The notes beneath the pieces were generated by a model. It saw only the letters and a program-made list of their open reading frames with translations. It ran no database searches and was not told where the DNA came from. This document shows positions 2,384 to 62,231 of a stretch of 64,000 nucleotides of DNA, piece after piece (positions within the stretch are counted from its first letter, which is position 1; every line of letters begins with the position of its first letter). The position numbers and the translations under genes are program-made. Source of the DNA: a virus; the IMG/VR virus record IMGVR_UViG_3300032285_001268, positions 1 to 64,000 of that record. The stretch is one strand, 5' to 3'.

Positions 2384-4732
2384 TTATGTTGGGAAGTCTA
2401 AACTACTGGTTGTTGTGCCAGTATTTGTAATTGTATGTGCGCTGGCGCTACGATCCACTAGGTTACCATCTAATGCTAGTTTTGTATTAGCATCAGTTAC
2501 TAATGTCAGTGGTGGAGTAAATGTAGTTGAATAGCGCGGTGTGTTACTGATTCTAATATTAGTTAGTTTTCCGTTAAAATACTGGAAGTCGTTGTTACCG
2601 CGGCGCCCAATCCATAGATCATTACTTGTATCGTTGGCGTAATAACCTGGGCCGTTATAGACATTAACGCCGTTGTAGTATACATTTGTATCAGTTGGAC
2701 CACCACCGCTACAAGTTATAGCCACATGTGTCCATACGCCCGGAGTAGGTTCAGCACAAAGTACTCTTCCGTTGTTAACGTTTAAATTTCCGTTTTGATA
2801 AAATATATCAATTGTATTGTTGTTAGGCTGTTGAGACATTATGGTCAACAGTGCCCCGGATGTAGTAGCTACTGAGGCTTTGCTCCAGAACTCTATAGTA
2901 TAGTTTAACTGTATGCTCCAGTCTGTTCTTGTTCCGCCTACCTGTATGCGATTTGAACTGCCATTAAATGCCAGGATCTTTTTCTTAACTATAGCCAAGA
3001 ACATTTGACTGATTCTTGATCCGCCCCATGTGTTAGAAAATGTAGTGTCACCAAAGTAGTTGGTCAGGCAATCACGGAAGTCTTGATTAACACCTGTAGC
3101 ATCAAATGTACCAATAGCTACGATTGTGCCAGGTAAGAATGATCTTAGTAGTGCGGCTATGTTGGTGCCTAAACTGGCATTATTATAAGTGTCATACCAG
3201 TTGGCGCTTTGTACAGTACCGTCGGTGTTTAGGGCCACTACAGTATGTCCACGACGCATACAGAATCCAAGTCCGTTGTTAGTTGGAGGATCTTGTGGTG
3301 CTGGCAATGTAGTTGGGCTACCTGCTGTAAATGGTGTAGCTGATGTCCAAGCGACAGTACCTGTATTGGTTATTGTGAGATTGCTTGGGCTGGTGTCTTT
3401 TAATAGGTCACCGCTGGTCAATTCTGTTAGTAACAGTTTAGTGTTGGTTACGGGCAACAATGGATTGACCGATGGTGTAAAGTTGGCGGTGTATACTGCT
3501 GTTCCATTAACAACTCGTACACTGGTCATCGACCCTACAAAAAAGTTTGCGTGATTGAAGTCTGCACCAATATGTAATTGATTTGTAGTTCCATAATCGT
3601 TAGTATCTGTGTAAGTCGTTGCGGCTGCTGTACCATTTATGTATAACTTGGTTGCGTTATTGCGTTTTACTACAGCAATATGTGTCCAAGTGTTTAAAGA
3701 TAAAGTACTACCAATAATTCTATTAGCGCCATTGACAAACAAATAGATAGCACTGGTATTGCTAATGCCTAGCATTGGTGCAACTTGCGGTTCTGAGGTT
3801 CTAAAATCAAACAAGCGATGGTTAATTCCACCAGTAGTATGATAGTACCAACCCTCAAAAGTAAAGTCACCTGTACCAAATCCAAATGCTGGTGTAGTTG
3901 CTATTGACAGATAGTTACTGCCGCTAAATGATGCACTGCCGCCAACTGCTGAATTATCAAAGTTATCCGGACTGCGAGTATGGTCAGTGGCAACCATAAC
4001 ACCGTTCACTCTAATGTAACTGCCGTATATAGGATTGCCGTCAAAGTTAGTACAGATAAATCTCAAACTATTGCCAGCAATAGTCTGGTCAAATGTCATA
4101 TATGTGCCGCCAACTAACTGCTGTTCAAAGTAACCATACTGGTCAACAACGGGTATTGAAGTATCAGCAACTGATACTGTGCCGCTGGTAGCTACGATAG
4201 GACCGCTTGTGGAGCCTGTGCGTATATCTACTATGACTGTTTCAGTGCCTTCTGTTAGATAATCGTTTGCTAGCACTCTGGTAAATGTTGCTGTGCCGCT
4301 GTTAACAGTAAATGATCCGCTGTTGGCGGCGCCAGTGAAGTCTGCACCTACTGTTGTTCCACTATTGGTCCAATACAATGTTGTGCCATCTGCTACACCA
4401 ACTGTGGTAATTGTATAGGTAATTGTATCGCCTTCGTTAACTGCTGATGCGTTTGGTGATATGCTATAACTGATTGAAATCCAAGGACGACCAACAACTA
4501 ATCCACCTGTATTAGGATTGTCTGTAATGCCGTTGCCGTTATATTGTGTAGGCAACTGTGTAATATCGTAATATGCTCTCGAACGTGCATAATTCTTAGT
4601 AGGATCTGCACTACCTGTTACGGTTCCATCAGCGGCAACTACTTTACCCTGTCGTTTAGACGAAGCAATGTTAAGTTTGGCTGTTTGTTTTGCCTGCTTA
4701 GTTGATAGTATTGATATACCGTTTTTTGCCAT
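2384..4732 (-). CDS. Large adhesin: Calx-beta-like, two LamG domains and a FAM3/ILEI-like domain
   Basis: 782 residues. Domains in order: about residues 95-190 resemble a Calx-beta repeat (SAVNEGDTITYTI, then a GTETVIV turn). About 265-430 is a LamG/concanavalin-like sandwich (FTFEGWYYH, WTHIAVVKR, LYINGTAA). About 490-590 resembles the FAM3/ILEI carbohydrate-binding fold (GHTVVALNTDG, PGTIVAIGTFDATG, FLAIVKKK). About 590-760 is a second LamG domain (YTIEFWSKAS, WTHVAITCSGG, LWIGRRG). No transmembrane segment. Such sugar-binding modules fit a host-recognition fibre. The domain calls are by eye, the FAM3 one being the least certain. Confidence 0.65.
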   Translation of the reverse strand: MAKNGISILSTKQAKQTAKLNIASSKRQGKVVAADGTVTGSADPTKNYARSRAYYDITQLPTQYNGNGITDNPNTGGLVVGRPWISISYSISPNASAVNEGDTITYTITTVGVADGTTLYWTNSGTTVGADFTGAANSGSFTVNSGTATFTRVLANDYLTEGTETVIVDIRTGSTSGPIVATSGTVSVADTSIPVVDQYGYFEQQLVGGTYMTFDQTIAGNSLRFICTNFDGNPIYGSYIRVNGVMVATDHTRSPDNFDNSAVGGSASFSGSNYLSIATTPAFGFGTGDFTFEGWYYHTTGGINHRLFDFRTSEPQVAPMLGISNTSAIYLFVNGANRIIGSTLSLNTWTHIAVVKRNNATKLYINGTAAATTYTDTNDYGTTNQLHIGADFNHANFFVGSMTSVRVVNGTAVYTANFTPSVNPLLPVTNTKLLLTELTSGDLLKDTSPSNLTITNTGTVAWTSATPFTAGSPTTLPAPQDPPTNNGLGFCMRRGHTVVALNTDGTVQSANWYDTYNNASLGTNIAALLRSFLPGTIVAIGTFDATGVNQDFRDCLTNYFGDTTFSNTWGGSRISQMFLAIVKKKILAFNGSSNRIQVGGTRTDWSIQLNYTIEFWSKASVATTSGALLTIMSQQPNNNTIDIFYQNGNLNVNNGRVLCAEPTPGVWTHVAITCSGGGPTDTNVYYNGVNVYNGPGYYANDTSNDLWIGRRGNNDFQYFNGKLTNIRISNTPRYSTTFTPPLTLVTDANTKLALDGNLVDRSASAHTITNTGTTTSSLDFPT

Positions 4733-4768: not shown

Positions 4769-5974
4769 ATGACTATGATAAACAAAGAACCTTTCGAACG
4801 ACTAATAGCAGATCTTAAAGAAAACGGAAAATATCGGGTTTTTAACGACATCGTTCGTGAAAACGGCAAGTTTCCGCAAGCAATATGGTATGGGCCATAT
4901 AATATTAAAAACATTGTCAACTGGTGCTCAAATGATTACTTAGGCATGGGACAGCACAAAGTTGTGCTTGATGCCATGCACACAGCATTAGATCATACAG
5001 GATCAGGTTCAGGTGGTACACGCAATATCGGCGGTACTAGCCACTATCATGTTGCACTTGAACATGAGCTTGCTAGCCTGCACAAGAAAGAAAAAGCTGT
5101 ACTGTTCTCTAGTGCTTATGTGGCCAACGAATGGACACTGATTGCTCTAGCTAAAATTATTCCCAATATTGAATATATCAGCGATGCTAATAATCATAAC
5201 TCAATCATTGTAGGAATACAGCACAGCCGTGCAGATAAAGTTATCTTTAAACACAATGACTTAGATGATCTAGAACAAAAATTAAAGATTAGTTTTGCAC
5301 AGGGTAAAACTCCTTGTGTAGTATTTGAAAGTGTATACAGCATGGATGGAGATGTTGGACACATTGAAGAAATCTGTAAGTTAGCCAACAAATACAAAGC
5401 TATTACCTATATCGATGAAGTACACGCTGTGGGCTTATATGGAGAACACGGAGGTGGAAAATTAGAAGAGCTTGGGCTTGAAGACAAAGTAGACATAGTC
5501 AATGGAACTTTGGGAAAGGCCTTTGGAGTCCAGGGTGGTTACATTGCTTGCGACAAGATTGTAGCCGACGCTATTCGTAGCGTAGCCGCTGGATTCATTT
5601 TTACAACCAGCATGAGTCCTGTTACTTGTGCCGGAGCAATGGCGGCAATCAAGTATCTCAAAGATCATAATGAGATACGTGAGCGTCATCAAGATCGTGC
5701 TCGCAAACTAAAACATAGATTAAAAGTCGCCGGGATTCCTGTAATGGAATGTAGTACTAGTCACATAGTTCCGGTGCTAGTAGGCGATGCTAAACGCTGT
5801 AAAGCTATGAGTGATGCACTATTGAATGACCATAACATCTATGTACAACCAATCAACTATCCTACAGTTGATGTGGGAACGGAGCGGTTGCGTTTTGCAC
5901 CCACTCCGTTTCATGATGATGGTATGATCGAGGATCTAGTGCAGGCACTAGTCCAAGTGTTTAATACCTACTGA
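4769..5974 (+). CDS. hemA: 5-aminolevulinate synthase
   Basis: 401 residues, the usual length. Condenses glycine and succinyl-CoA to 5-aminolevulinate, the first step of the C4 tetrapyrrole pathway; PLP enzyme of the alpha-oxoamine synthase family. The PLP lysine is K250 in GTLGKAFG; D216 and H219 of [10 protein letters not shown]23 of YRVF, N55 of CSNDYLG and T84 of GGTRNIGG match residues known in Rhodobacter [12 protein letters not shown] followed by GTERLR near the C-terminus separates it from KAPA synthase. No CP heme-regulatory motif is seen. It lies on the plus strand between minus-strand fibre genes and meets the next gene tail to tail with no gap. The start has no strong SD; an alternative ATG lies two codons downstream. 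GTTAAATA just upstream may be a late promoter. Probably an auxiliary metabolic gene of alphaproteobacterial origin. Confidence 0.93.
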
Positions 5975-6994
5975 TTATCTCACCCAATACCAAATTGCAC
6001 CTGGACGAGCACCGTCTTCAATAGTGCTTAACCACGGAGCAGGATTCCAACCCCCACCGGTGATTAGTGTGCCCCACCAGCCACCACGGAATCCATCTGT
6101 GGTTAACCAACCGTAGTTGATACCAATACCTATCCAAGGCATACGTGCTTCCATAGCATTGTCATCGTAGTTCCACGTATTACCATTGTAGCCCCAACGT
6201 GCTAGTTCTGTAATGTTCTTGCGCCAACCTGGTGTACCTAACTGTGCATCACCCATATCAGAGCTGTCAAAAGTCTGCACAAAACTGTATGGTTCATTAG
6301 CGGTCCACGCACCACCTAGTGATCCGTGTTCACGAGCTGTGATCATAAAATCAAATCCTGACTCTGCACTTTTAATCTTATCAGCCCAACTTAAGATGCT
6401 GTAGTTATAGTCAGTTGACTGTATGTCATGCCCTACTAATTGTGTAGGAGCATTTGTTTCATTAAGTAAAAACAATTGATCAGTTTGCCACTCACACGCT
6501 GAGTTTTGTACAATCAAAGTCCAGCCGCCACCTAAGGTAGTCATATCGCAATATACTTGGAACGGATCTCCGTTGTTAATCGCATCATTCTGTATCCAAT
6601 ATACGCCATCTTCGCTGTCTGGATAGTCTTGTTTAATTTGCCAAGCACTAGTACTATATTCATCTATAGTCTTGCCAGTATGTACGCCCAATGCTTTATT
6701 GCGAGAAGTACGTTCTGCTCGTTCACGTGCTTGAACAGCAATCTCGTCGGTGCGTAGTGCGGCTATTAACGCCTGCCTATCTCCTGGACTTAGTGTTTCG
6801 TAATATGATAATATAGTTTCTTGATTCACAATTTCTTCCTCGATTTCAACAATGGTATTTTGATCATTTGATGTTTGTGCTATTAGTAAATCACTAGGCG
6901 GATGAATCACTAACGTTGATAGTGGACCGTGGCCTTCTGTAAATTCGCAGCCAATGTTTCCGTCATTACTAACTCTAACGATTAAATTAGCCAT
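5975..6994 (-). CDS. Fibrinogen-like-domain virion protein
   Basis: 339 residues. The C-terminal half carries the signature of fibrinogen-related domains: DGVYWIQ, then GDPFQVYCDMTTLGGGWTLI (residues about 140-175), and a Trp-rich end (WWGTLITGGGWNPAPW). The N-terminal half has a helical EIEEEIVNQETILSYYE segment that could trimerise. These domains bind sugars or acetylated ligands in animals; in phages they occur on tail proteins. It lies among fibre genes and ends exactly where hemA ends. Adhesin role inferred. Confidence 0.6.
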   Translation of the reverse strand: MANLIVRVSNDGNIGCEFTEGHGPLSTLVIHPPSDLLIAQTSNDQNTIVEIEEEIVNQETILSYYETLSPGDRQALIAALRTDEIAVQARERAERTSRNKALGVHTGKTIDEYSTSAWQIKQDYPDSEDGVYWIQNDAINNGDPFQVYCDMTTLGGGWTLIVQNSACEWQTDQLFLLNETNAPTQLVGHDIQSTDYNYSILSWADKIKSAESGFDFMITAREHGSLGGAWTANEPYSFVQTFDSSDMGDAQLGTPGWRKNITELARWGYNGNTWNYDDNAMEARMPWIGIGINYGWLTTDGFRGGWWGTLITGGGWNPAPWLSTIEDGARPGAIWYWVR

Positions 6995-8938: not shown

Positions 8939-9775
8939 TTAGTCTGCTGATGCATTAGCACCGCACTTAGCACGTTTAGCATTTGTAAGAGCTCCAAAGT
9001 TTACAGGCCATTCTTGCCCCGGCGCAAGTTCTATAGCACCTGCTGGGAAAGCATACTTAACACCAGCTTCTCGCATAATGTCAGCAACAGGCTTACGAAA
9101 TACTGTTAAGTCATTGCCTAAGTTAACATATGGCTTGGTGTGTGGAAATGCCCATCCAGCGATTTGTTTAGTTTGGTTATTAATAACAATCTTATAGTAT
9201 CCGTGTGGAACAATAACTCCGTTACCAATTGTAGGATCTCCTGCACCGTAGAATGCACCTACATAGATTGTATATGGTTGGTTAAGTTGTACTGCCCAGC
9301 CACGAACTGATGTTTCTAATAGTTTCCAAATGCCGCGATTCAATGATCCGTGTTGTGGATACATGTTGGTCATTAAGAATGATTCATACTCTACTTGTTG
9401 TGTCCAACTTAGATCGCCGTCTGGAGCGGCATGTCCTTTGTCGTAGCCTGTACCAACATAGTCAGCTGGTGTTGCACCTGTGCCGCCTAGTGATTGGTCA
9501 GCTACGAAAGCATTTGTGCGTGGAAAGCAACCTAATGCGTTTTGCGGTAATAGTGTATATGCTACATAAGCAGGAATCTTTACAGGAGCATCATATGCTA
9601 CTAGATATGCTTCACGGCAAATAGGAGTTGCTGTACGTGCTGTTTGTGCAAAACCATATGGGCTGTGTATTTGGCAGGCTTGTACTGGGTTAGGAACACG
9701 TTGATCCCAAGCGTTTGCTTGTAGGCTGACTGTAGCAATAAAGGCTAGAAGTAGCCCAGTTAATATCTTTTTCAC
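8939..9775 (-). CDS. Secreted DNA/RNA non-specific endonuclease
   Basis: 278 residues. N-terminal Sec signal peptide (MKK, hydrophobic core, LQANA cleavage near residue 22) targets it to the periplasm. The NUC-family catalytic motif DKGH is at 112-115 in YDKGHAAPDGD, and TNMYPQHGSLNRGIW (about 136-150) supplies the metal-binding Asn. Known family members cut single- and double-stranded DNA and RNA with a Mg ion. A phage could use it to degrade DNA outside the cytoplasm, for example that of a superinfecting phage. CTAAATATTA in the leader may be a late promoter. Confidence 0.85.
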   Translation of the reverse strand: MKKILTGLLLAFIATVSLQANAWDQRVPNPVQACQIHSPYGFAQTARTATPICREAYLVAYDAPVKIPAYVAYTLLPQNALGCFPRTNAFVADQSLGGTGATPADYVGTGYDKGHAAPDGDLSWTQQVEYESFLMTNMYPQHGSLNRGIWKLLETSVRGWAVQLNQPYTIYVGAFYGAGDPTIGNGVIVPHGYYKIVINNQTKQIAGWAFPHTKPYVNLGNDLTVFRKPVADIMREAGVKYAFPAGAIELAPGQEWPVNFGALTNAKRAKCGANASAD

Positions 9776-10396: not shown

Positions 10397-10825
10397 TCAA
10401 CCAAACCAACCTATACGTTTGCCCTGTGCTTTACGTTCATCATATTCTTCTGCGGTTTTAGGATAGGCCATTGCCCACCATGCAACAATGGCCATGAATA
10501 TACCTGTGCCTACCACTGCTTTCCAATTGTGTGTAGTGAACCACATGATGATTAGGCTACAGTCCATAGTAAGGATCATTAGCCAACGTGCCTTAACTGG
10601 GAACACACGTTTTTCTGTCCATCCTCGGAGGAAAGGACCAAAAATCTTATGATTCATTAGCCAGTTGTGCATGCGATCTGAACCACGAGCAAAACAGTAG
10701 GCCGCACCTACTGTAGGAGTACTCCATGGTATGCCGGGAGTAATTAGTCCTATATAGGCTACACCTAGGAGTATTACTCCCAAGGTGCACCATAGTATTT
10801 TCTTTATTGGATGAATTGTAGCCAT
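10397..10825 (-). CDS. DUF454 (YbaN-like) inner-membrane protein
   Basis: 142 residues with about four hydrophobic segments. LGVILLGVAYIGLITPGIPWSTPTVGAAYCFARGS (split over two helices) with HNWLMNHKIFGPFLRGW is the DUF454 signature. Function of the family is unknown. It overlaps the HNH gene by 22 bases and is host-like in character, so probably an acquired gene. Confidence 0.75.
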   Translation of the reverse strand: MATIHPIKKILWCTLGVILLGVAYIGLITPGIPWSTPTVGAAYCFARGSDRMHNWLMNHKIFGPFLRGWTEKRVFPVKARWLMILTMDCSLIIMWFTTHNWKAVVGTGIFMAIVAWWAMAYPKTAEEYDERKAQGKRIGWFG

Positions 10826-11368: not shown

Positions 11369-11397
11369 ATTATACACTCAATTAATATTTATGCTAA
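11369..11397 (-). promoter_or_regulatory. Possible sigma70 promoter for the HNH gene
   Basis: Minus-strand TTAGCA, 17-bp spacer, TATAAT. The -10 is perfect and the -35 weak. Confidence 0.45.
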
Positions 11398-11937
11398 TAT
11401 ACTTTGAGCAAATTCTAAACCAGATCGATCTAGGGCATTGCACCATTGATCAGCATTGTCAGTTCCAAAAACCAACTCTGGATCGCTATTAGCCAAGCAC
11501 CAACTAGTAGCTGTTTGCCACGGAGGATCACCCCGTATTTCTCCCATCAGTTGTCCAGGACCCCAACCACAAACACCTAAAAACAATCTCCAGAACTCTG
11601 GTTTATCACCACTGGCTAATCTAGGTAAAATGTCTTCGTCCGAACTGATGCTAAACTTATCACTGATCTGCATAGTGTTACTACTTTGCCAATCATTAGT
11701 GTGTAAGAAGCTTAGATTTTTTGTGTTGAGAGGACCGCCTACATAAACGAAACCGGGACTATCGATCGCATAGCCTAGTTGTGCGCCAAACTCACTTACG
11801 CTCATTTGACTACGTTTGTTTAGAACTAATCCCATGCTTCCTTGCAGATGATGTTCTGTAATTATTATTACAGTCTTATGCCAGAAATTAGTTTTAACTG
11901 CGGGGGGTGCTATTATTAAATTACCTGTTATTTCCAT
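11389..11937 (-). CDS. YqgE/AlgH family protein (UPF0301)
   Basis: 182 residues, the normal family length. Signatures: GNLIIAPP at the N-terminus, GSMGLVLNKRS (about 33-43), VYVGGPLN (about 64-71), LGVCGWGPGQL (about 119-129) and the closing WCLANSDPELVFG. The cellular family is linked to alginate and gene regulation, but its biochemistry is not settled. Rare in phages, hence probably taken from a host. AATAAATAC on the minus strand ends 5 bases before the ATG. Confidence 0.85.
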   Translation of the reverse strand: MEITGNLIIAPPAVKTNFWHKTVIIITEHHLQGSMGLVLNKRSQMSVSEFGAQLGYAIDSPGFVYVGGPLNTKNLSFLHTNDWQSSNTMQISDKFSISSDEDILPRLASGDKPEFWRLFLGVCGWGPGQLMGEIRGDPPWQTATSWCLANSDPELVFGTDNADQWCNALDRSGLEFAQSILA

Positions 11938-45111: not shown

Positions 45112-46068
45112 TTAGATATTGATTTCAAGATGTTTGACAGGATCCCAGTGCCAGTTCCACTCGCGCTGTTTAGTATGATACAGCACCGATCCAATTGCTG
45201 AACTAGGATCTCCTGGATTAGGCAAACTCCAACGATATTTGAACATAGGTTCAACATATTTCTTATTAGCACGACTGTTCATAGCACAACCGCCCATGTA
45301 GACCAAACAGTCGGCATTGGTATATAACTTGGCAGTGGTCATTACTAGTTCCACTTGTTCTTCAAATACCTGTTGTACAGCCGCGGCTAGATCGCATTGT
45401 TCTTGTAGTGTAGTTAGTTCACCGTGATCCCAATTCAATACACCACGATGAAAATTGGTGTTTAATTCTAGTACTGTACCTGGATTAAAATAACTTCTGA
45501 CATAGTGTAAGAATCTGTTCGGATCACCTTGTTCGGCCATTTGCTGTAGCAAGAATTCGTCTCGGATAGGAGTTAATCCAACAAACTGAGTAAACGCTGA
45601 ATAGAACAAGCCCAAACTATGTGGATAACTACGACTCCACACTTTGGTCATTTCGCCGTGGACGCAGTTCCAAATTGTGGCACATTCAAACTCTCCGATA
45701 GCATCTAACACTACCACTGCCGCATGATTAAATGGACTAGTATAGTAACCTGCTGCCGCATGGCTACCATGGTGAGGTGTGTATCTGACTTTTGCATATT
45801 TTAATGCATTCCTCTTGATCCATTTGCTGGGCAATACGTCCAAGTTGGCCGCAGTATGGTATTGGCCAGCATAGACTTGGCGAGCTTTTTTAACCCACGG
45901 ACGTTCGTACCAAAATATACTACTAGGTCCGCCTGCACGATCTAATGCGTTAGTGATTAGACGTCGATCCATCCGGTCATTACTACTGGTTTCAAAACTG
46001 ACTAATCTATCAGTAAACACAGCAATACTACTGCCGTGATTGAGTGCGTTTATGCCCCAGTAAGTCAT
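45112..46068 (-). CDS. Carbamoyltransferase-like protein (N-terminal domain only)
   Basis: 318 residues. NodU/CmcH-type Kae1-like domain: GINALNHGSSIAVF (5-18), TPHHGSHAAAGYYTSPF (97-113, metal His), DEF and GGCAMNSRANKKY (about 255-267). The usual family protein is about 570 residues; the C-terminal half is missing, as I recall for other T4-like phage homologues. ATGA overlap with a tiny gene upstream. Nucleoside or sugar carbamoylation is possible, but activity of the short form is uncertain. Confidence 0.75.
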   Translation of the reverse strand: MTYWGINALNHGSSIAVFTDRLVSFETSSNDRMDRRLITNALDRAGGPSSIFWYERPWVKKARQVYAGQYHTAANLDVLPSKWIKRNALKYAKVRYTPHHGSHAAAGYYTSPFNHAAVVVLDAIGEFECATIWNCVHGEMTKVWSRSYPHSLGLFYSAFTQFVGLTPIRDEFLLQQMAEQGDPNRFLHYVRSYFNPGTVLELNTNFHRGVLNWDHGELTTLQEQCDLAAAVQQVFEEQVELVMTTAKLYTNADCLVYMGGCAMNSRANKKYVEPMFKYRWSLPNPGDPSSAIGSVLYHTKQREWNWHWDPVKHLEINI

Positions 46069-60629: not shown

Positions 60630-60637
60630 TATTTATC
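60630..60637 (-). promoter_or_regulatory. T4-like late promoter
   Basis: Minus-strand GATAAATA, 5 bases upstream of the ATG at 60625. Confidence 0.45.
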
Positions 60638-62231
60638 AGATGCCTGTTGATATGTATATGGGCAAAGGTAGTTCTAAATCTTCTTCTAATTCGCTTTGAA
60701 CACGCAATGTTTCAAATACGTTAGGATCCCACTCAGCTAGTACCTGTGAGATTCGAACTACTAGTAGCAGTGACGCAACTAGGTCGTCGTGTTGCCCTAC
60801 TTTTGCTTTAAATGTAGTACCTGCGGCAATAAATGTTTTTAATTCGCTAATTAATGGTCTACTGTTTAAGGTCATTTTATCTTCTTCGATTAGATATTTG
60901 ACCTTAGCACAAGTGCTGATTTTATTGCCAAACGTAGTATTAAAACCCTTACGGAATTTACGCACATGTCCTTTTCTAGCAGGCTCACTCATGAACATTC
61001 CCGGAAATGTTTCTTCTCCGAGATTATTAATAACAACCAATGCGCTTTCACCTACAGTATTATTTTCTACACTCCAGTAAATGCTGTTGAAATTATCAGC
61101 ACCTATTTCGTCCTGTATGTATCGTAAAATATCCCTAAAAATTTTAACCTGTTGCTGGATCGGTGTAATGTTATGTTGCCACTCTCCGATCTGCACCATG
61201 CTGGGCATTTCAAATATTTGTATTGCTCCGTAGTCTCCTCCTGTTCCGAGACTGGGATCTAGCGCGGCCACATACACATTTCCCGCAGTTGGTTTCTTCC
61301 ACCAGCGTACTTGTCCTTGCTTGAACGCCGGTTCTTTTCCGGGTAGTTCTGCTAGTTTTAAACTGTTAATTAGTGTTTCGTCGTAGACTAAGAATTCGCA
61401 ACCGTACTCACGACGGAAACGTTCTTCGCCAATGCGTCCCATCTCAGTCTTTTTCCAATCTTCACCACGATCCGGATGTTCCCACCACTCGGCACGGAAT
61501 CCATGGAACCCGTTAACTCCTGTGCCATCTTCTTTTTCGTTGCCGTATTCGTCAAACTTGTTTTGTGACTCTTTCCAAATAATAGCAAACTCGTCTTCGT
61601 CTGAGTTTGGTGTACTGGTGATAATTGCTCGACCACCAGTTGCTAGTGTTGGGCTGATTGACGTCCAAAATTCTGTAGCAATGTTAGGTTGTACGAAAGC
61701 AAACTCATCGCAATATAGTAAGGATATGGACATACCACGACCGGTATTACCAGTAGTAGTAGCTGATACAATTCTTGATCCGTTATCAAATTCAATACTC
61801 CCTTTGTTATAGTTTACAACACCACAACGTATGTGATCTTCGCACAGTTCATAGCCATAGCGGATACGTTGCATAATTTCCTGTGAGCCTGTGTATTTGT
61901 GCGCGGCCACTAGAATAGTTTGATCTGGATGGAACATAGCATACCATAGCAGGTAACTTGATGCACAAGTTGTCTTACCACTTTGACGTGGTAGCATGTT
62001 GATGTTAAAACGATAATCGTGATAGGCGGCCAGCAAGCGTTCTTGATATTCAAATGGTTCAAATTTAACTTTACCCTTTACCGGATGTTGAATATGAAAG
62101 AATTTTTTAGCGAAAGCCAAGTACCCGTTGGTGGGATCAGAACATGCGATCAAGTCAGCAATTTGTTCTTCTGTAAACTTTTCTTTACTATGCGCTTTTT
62201 TGGTTAAGACGCCGTCTAGTGATTTTGCCAT
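60636..62231 (-). CDS. 17: Large terminase subunit, gp17 type
   Basis: 531 residues. ATPase: Walker A LPRQSGKTT (80-88), Walker B LLYCDEFAF (171-179, D175/E176), coupling motif TSTPN (205-209). RuvC-like nuclease: ALDPSLGTGGDYG (D325), YWSVENN (E389), HDDLVAS (D482/D483). Cuts concatemers and pumps DNA into proheads. The stop is nearly adjacent to the start of the 728-residue gene. Confidence 0.95.
   Translation of the reverse strand: MAKSLDGVLTKKAHSKEKFTEEQIADLIACSDPTNGYLAFAKKFFHIQHPVKGKVKFEPFEYQERLLAAYHDYRFNINMLPRQSGKTTCASSYLLWYAMFHPDQTILVAAHKYTGSQEIMQRIRYGYELCEDHIRCGVVNYNKGSIEFDNGSRIVSATTTGNTGRGMSISLLYCDEFAFVQPNIATEFWTSISPTLATGGRAIITSTPNSDEDEFAIIWKESQNKFDEYGNEKEDGTGVNGFHGFRAEWWEHPDRGEDWKKTEMGRIGEERFRREYGCEFLVYDETLINSLKLAELPGKEPAFKQGQVRWWKKPTAGNVYVAALDPSLGTGGDYGAIQIFEMPSMVQIGEWQHNITPIQQQVKIFRDILRYIQDEIGADNFNSIYWSVENNTVGESALVVINNLGEETFPGMFMSEPARKGHVRKFRKGFNTTFGNKISTCAKVKYLIEEDKMTLNSRPLISELKTFIAAGTTFKAKVGQHDDLVASLLLVVRISQVLAEWDPNVFETLRVQSELEEDLELPLPIYISTGI

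Follow-up and report, generated by a model that had tools for sequence, protein, structure and literature searches.

A viral 5-aminolevulinate synthase, its frequent DUF454/YbaN neighbour, and a viral-type copy in a louse symbiont

5-Aminolevulinate synthase (ALAS) begins the synthesis of heme and vitamin B12. The bacterial enzymes of the C4 (Shemin) pathway (HemA), exemplified by R. capsulatus ALAS (2bwn), agree in family, active site, and length with ALAS proteins encoded by phages. However, the viral sequences form a clade of their own, and their genes are often paired with a gene for a DUF454 protein. According to the main text of Wegner et al. 2024, viral alaS genes (valaS) occur in marine and freshwater phages and make up a separate clade, and a relative from the freshwater phage CB_2 complements E. 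coli ST18, whereas its K250A mutant fails to do so (PMC11480375). The same text describes viral ALAS as devoid of RcA His342/Cys400 and reports hemO and pcyA/X at some valaS loci (PMC11480375). A 2026 study tracked viral alaS genes in the Elbe estuary (PMC13390420). Tetrapyrrole genes are also carried by phages in hemO/pcyX/pebS bilin cassettes; these serve heme breakdown or pigments, whereas only the first synthetic step was found in the virus record considered here. As for DUF454, E. coli ybaN belongs to the Fur regulon (PMC7157518, PMC10164565), and an Avibacterium DUF454 gene goes up under iron restriction (PMC7970244).

The window is the whole stretch of 64,000 nucleotides that was analyzed, corresponding to positions 1–64000 of a 185,262-base virus record. 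Judged by its terminase large subunit (60636–62231, minus strand; assigned by tblastn to named phages), the record appears closest to T4-like jumbo phages, with 53% to the Pseudomonas phage PA5oct group and 51–52% to Sinorhizobium phage Phosso and Agrobacterium phage Atu_ph07. The valaS gene occupies 4769–5974 on the plus strand and encodes 401 residues from ATG to TGA; since its relatives begin with MINK, the second ATG at 4775 may be the real start. TIGR01821, the NCBIfam model for 5-aminolevulinate synthase, matches residues 8–399 with 571.4 bits, 233 bits above its cut-off of 338.55, which amounts to a full-length ALAS match. The solved structures nearest to the protein are ALAS 7x98 and R. 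capsulatus ALAS 2bwn. All tested residues for PLP, glycine, and succinyl-CoA are intact (R23, N55, D56, T84, N86, I87, S138, H143, E187, S191, D216, V218, H219, T247, the PLP lysine K250, T366, and R375), and the 17 corresponding active-site positions of R. capsulatus ALAS are invariant in 150 of 150 viral sequences.

Measured against close relatives, omega of the window ALAS is about 0.06 (approximately 0.04–0.08, with dS near saturation), which points to strong purifying selection. The invariant active site, the low omega, and the active CB_2 relative make enzyme activity of the window copy very likely, and we regard the gene with good confidence as a functional member of valaS, the known class of viral ALAS. 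It resembles the CB_2 enzyme in identity, in its intact active site, in its separate viral clade, and in being without RcA His342; the CB_2 copy has been shown active in E. coli. Because valaS was described and shown to be active in 2024 (main text of PMC11480375), the gene is of an already known kind. As one more well-conserved representative of a gene class already published for phages, it matters less than what it leads to.

Two readings that would deny a viral ALAS fare poorly. One is that the protein is another alpha-oxoamine synthase (glycine C-acetyltransferase, BioF, serine palmitoyltransferase, or autoinducer synthase), in which case no ALA would be made; the first-pass annotation had named placement with such enzymes, together with a lack of ALAS activity, as an outcome that would refute it. 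The common fold and PLP chemistry of all these enzymes would allow it, as would the Pfam result for the window protein, which is mainly Aminotran_1_2. However, the NCBIfam models for glycine C-acetyltransferase, BioF, and serine palmitoyltransferase all score far under their own cut-offs, while TIGR01821 lies well over its own; the active-site residues expected of an ALAS, T84, N86, I87, and T366 among them, are unaltered; and the tree puts the protein on the ALAS side, with the Kbl-like outgroups as a branch of their own (support 99). Profile scores and tree rule out such an identity, which is left very improbable, and the annotated complete ALAS with intact catalytic and substrate residues is upheld by the TIGR01821 score, the 17 residues, and the phylogeny. 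Likewise, host DNA carry-over or mis-assembly with a bacterial contig might be suspected of a gene that is cellular in alphaproteobacteria, but this ALAS stands on hundreds of viral contigs, is flanked at the sampled loci by conserved phage genes, and belongs to a clade distinct from alphaproteobacterial ALAS. The conserved phage surroundings refute this reading, and its probability is close to nil; that the gene is phage-encoded, as first proposed, is confirmed by the 185-kb virus record, the phage terminase, and the viral clade.

The viral class is broad. In IMG/VR, 527 stretches encode relatives of the window ALAS, the best at 92%. In contrast to this abundance, named phages in INPHARED give only Kbl/BioF-like matches (26–35%) with no close relatives, INPHARED contains no DNA match to window positions 1–25000, and no PHROG family covers the protein. 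A tree of 126 rows groups 82 viral and five MAG-labelled ALAS in one long-stemmed clade (support 100) that is separate from the 35 alphaproteobacterial ALAS, with the Kbl-like outgroups outside. In a 62-row tree, a second viral lineage, termed virus2 and 56–57% identical to that of the window, is sister to the first. Viral ALAS has persisted for long in many phages. A comparison with alphaproteobacterial HemA had been suggested for finding the donor; it returned a long-stemmed viral clade and no donor among the 34–35 sampled alphaproteobacterial ALAS, the viral proteins being separate from all sampled bacterial sequences. ALAS is also present on four MAG contigs (L082, L084, L085, and L086) labelled Neomarinimicrobiota, Flavobacteriales, and Rhodobacteraceae. 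Being identical or close to IMG/VR contigs, these are most likely misbinned phage DNA and were set aside as cellular ALAS.

The gene is placed antiparallel to its neighbours. On the divergent side, the start codon of a probable fibre or adhesin gene with LamG-like (concanavalin-type) domains (2384–4732, minus strand; Pfam PF13385 in two stretches) lies 36 bp from the ALAS start. On the convergent side, the ALAS stop codon (5972–5974) abuts the stop codon, starting at 5975, of a gene with a fibrinogen-C-like domain (5975–6994, minus strand; Pfam PF00147, 27 bits against a cut-off of 22), so that the gap is zero. The sequence bears out the orientation and the abutting stops noted in the first-pass annotation, but not its view of an inserted gene: the antiparallel placement is found across the related phage clade, so the arrangement is old rather than the product of a recent insertion.

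Escape from host heme feedback is a further role that had been proposed for the window ALAS, and the main text of the 2024 paper makes the same proposal from the missing heme site (PMC11480375). No CP heme-regulatory motif is present in the window ALAS, in keeping with the original observation, and the position of RcA His342 is taken by Arg343. This position is Lys, Arg, or Leu in 146 of 150 viral sequences and His in one. However, 29 of the 34 alphaproteobacterial ALAS in the sample carry Leu, Arg, Lys, or Cys there and at most two carry His, so that at least 32 of them are without this histidine as well. The aligned RcA sequence ends at residue 393, and the comparison accordingly covers His342 and stops short of Cys400. 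Because the absence is not specific to phages, the argument for feedback bypass is weak; RcA His342 is a trait of few bacteria, and its absence in phages is no demonstration of a loss of regulation.

DUF454/YbaN is the commonest neighbour of viral ALAS, being found in 110 of 151 ALAS-bearing viral loci (97% non-redundant) and downstream in all of them; because each collection search retained the best 80 loci, these frequencies describe that sample. In about 41 (41–42) loci, the DUF454 gene follows ALAS directly, within 150 bp and on the same strand. Adjacent or overlapping genes are also seen in the sister lineage virus2 (L384–L387 and L395–L397), which makes the pairing look ancestral. In the window, a DUF454/YbaN small membrane protein of 142 residues is encoded at 10397–10825 on the minus strand (PF04304, 94.6 bits against a cut-off of 35.1), 4.4 kb downstream of ALAS and on the opposite strand. 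The pairing is not obligatory: DUF454 is missing from 17 of 80 well-flanked viral ALAS loci, and ALAS is missing from the whole record in 12 of 20 DUF454-bearing viral records. Among bacteria, 36 ALAS genes were sampled, mostly with flanks of only 1.5–3 kb, and none had DUF454 beside it. The main text of the 2024 valaS paper does not mention DUF454, which may be drawn in its figures or supplements (PMC11480375), and no mention of the pairing was found in the literature searched.

The AlphaFold2 model of the window DUF454 is a small helical protein (pLDDT 88.8) that is probably membrane-bound. Structure comparison gave no informative match for it: Foldseek returned none at E ≤ 0.001, and the best VIA Z was 5.8, on partial helices. 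His59 and Trp69 are invariant in the viral family and occur in 10 of 11 and 11 of 11 bacterial members, respectively. The bacterial members of PF04304, such as E. coli ybaN, have Pro30, Pro33, Trp69, and mostly His59 in common with the window protein; in contrast, the C-terminal tail is longer in the viral members, whose Met83 corresponds to Ala or Ser in bacteria. Three independent settings in gammaproteobacteria (four contexts, two of them the same plasmid cassette) combine a DUF454 gene with heme oxygenase and with genes for TonB or a hemoglobin receptor, and one further bacterial context adjoins a siderophore receptor. No heme or iron gene lies nearby in six of 11 bacterial contexts; the records behind these six include two from Acinetobacter that share one and the same DUF454 gene. 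The plasmid cassette, which combines DUF454 with a TonB-dependent hemoglobin-type receptor and heme oxygenase, is carried by small mobilizable plasmids of Acinetobacter baumannii and Psychrobacter (L459 and L463).

DUF454/YbaN may be a membrane partner of viral ALAS; its proposed place of action is the inner membrane, where ALA, porphyrin, or heme would be its target. While the pairing itself is directly seen, we infer such a function in ALA, porphyrin, or heme handling with a confidence only just short of even. That the two genes travel together through plain inherited synteny, without functional meaning, is a substantial though minority possibility. It draws on the window's own clade, in which DUF454 lies 0–8 kb from ALAS, on the opposite strand, in a block with HNH and AlgH-like genes that are also constant (74 and 66 of the 151 sampled loci, respectively); because this syntenic block explains the nearness, the proximity of DUF454 proves little there. 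In other clades, by contrast, the pair stays adjacent and on one strand while its outer neighbours change, with approximately 20 gene families upstream of ALAS and approximately 20 after DUF454 in the tight loci (counts made approximate by locus ends and small unclustered ORFs), and the sister lineage preserves the adjacency at only 56–57% identity.

A related question is which product the phage would gain. The benefit of the window ALAS, heme or another tetrapyrrole, is a matter of inference, as are its timing and its host. The first-pass annotation had it raising heme or cobalamin supply during infection; tetrapyrrole supply is a reasonable reading, whereas a heme or cobalamin benefit in an alphaproteobacterium would go a step beyond it. 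A real ALAS whose benefit is not heme, with ALA directed to cobalamin (e.g., for B12-dependent ribonucleotide reduction), siroheme, or bilin, is rather unlikely. Ribonucleotide reductase genes directly upstream of ALAS in some related loci would suit it, as would the hemO and pcyA/X genes of some published valaS loci, but the genes upstream of ALAS vary among clades. The searches for heme oxygenase speak against it as well: no PF01126 match was found in the 185-kb record, which may be incomplete, and three bacterial probes found none near viral ALAS, a weak test because viral HemO has diverged. The window locus differs in this respect from those published valaS loci with hemO, and a hemO cassette alongside the window ALAS was discarded as a candidate.

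A viral-type ALAS also occurs in a cell. Neisseriaceae bacterium PsAf is a symbiont of the louse Polyplax serrata (PMC9376444). Its ALAS (L083 3007–4194; L472) is 69% identical to that of the window and lies on a 96-kb contig among bacterial core genes, flanked on one side by LptD-, SurA-, and PdxA-like genes, amgK, and patatin and on the other by RbbA and an outer membrane protein of the NodT type. In a 56-row tree it falls within the viral clade (PsAf plus 18 viruses, support 100/98), a viral clade excluding PsAf is rejected (p-AU 0.0115), and the 62-row tree joins it most closely to the viral contig L204 (support 99/89). The PsAf assembly yields neither glutamyl-tRNA reductase (GtrR; 45 bits against a cut-off of 209.6) nor HemL (138 bits against 527), although the assembly is fragmented and the absence of the C5 genes is therefore not proven; HemB (450 bits) and HemE (413 bits) are both present. 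Among 83 genomes of its family, 79 have glutamyl-tRNA reductase, and only PsAf has ALAS above the cut-off. Apart from the viral-type ALAS, no enzyme that forms ALA was detected in this assembly, which counts as natural evidence that viral ALAS is functional.

The simplest reading is that PsAf captured a phage ALAS, which took over ALA formation. The true donor could be an unsampled bacterial lineage with the same type of ALAS. A second member of the family, G057 (1.6 Mb), is without both glutamyl-tRNA reductase and ALAS, yet has kept HemE; since a genome of similar size lacks the reductase without having ALAS, loss of the reductase may have come first. G057 was set aside as an empty insertion site beside the PsAf ALAS, because its neighbouring patatin is only 50% alike and probably a paralogue, and the comparison would not be clean. 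No report of the viral-type ALAS of PsAf was found in the literature searched, the main text of the 2024 valaS paper included (PMC11480375), the scope of which did not extend to the original genome paper.

Capture of a phage ALAS by PsAf can be joined to the pairing in a tentative reading, held at somewhat under an even chance: viral ALAS and an inner-membrane DUF454 would together make up a tetrapyrrole module of two genes, carried by phages as one unit, and the ALAS of this module would have been captured by PsAf, a betaproteobacterial louse symbiont, in place of a lost C5 route. If this is true, DUF454/YbaN, an orphan family that is widespread and Fur-regulated, would gain its first assigned function. 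The phages would point to a DUF454 partner in tetrapyrrole or heme metabolism, a clue that is conserved and testable. PsAf suggests that a cell can keep a viral-type ALAS instead of the C5 route; in this symbiont, a metabolic gene from phages has probably taken over one step of a core pathway.

A scan for promoters and terminators at the window ALAS found nothing beyond chance. The T4 late-promoter word TATAAATA is absent near the ALAS start in the window, while it occurs there in 17 of 149 viral loci against approximately 1.5 expected. Of the other genes in the window, 11389–11937 (minus strand) encodes an AlgH-like protein (YqgE, PF02622) of the kind counted above near ALAS in 66 of the 151 loci. 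A DNA/RNA non-specific endonuclease (PF01223) whose N-terminus resembles a secretion signal is encoded at 8939–9775 (minus strand), and a protein with a carbamoyltransferase N-terminal domain (PF02543), possibly acting in base or glycan modification, at 45112–46068 (minus strand).
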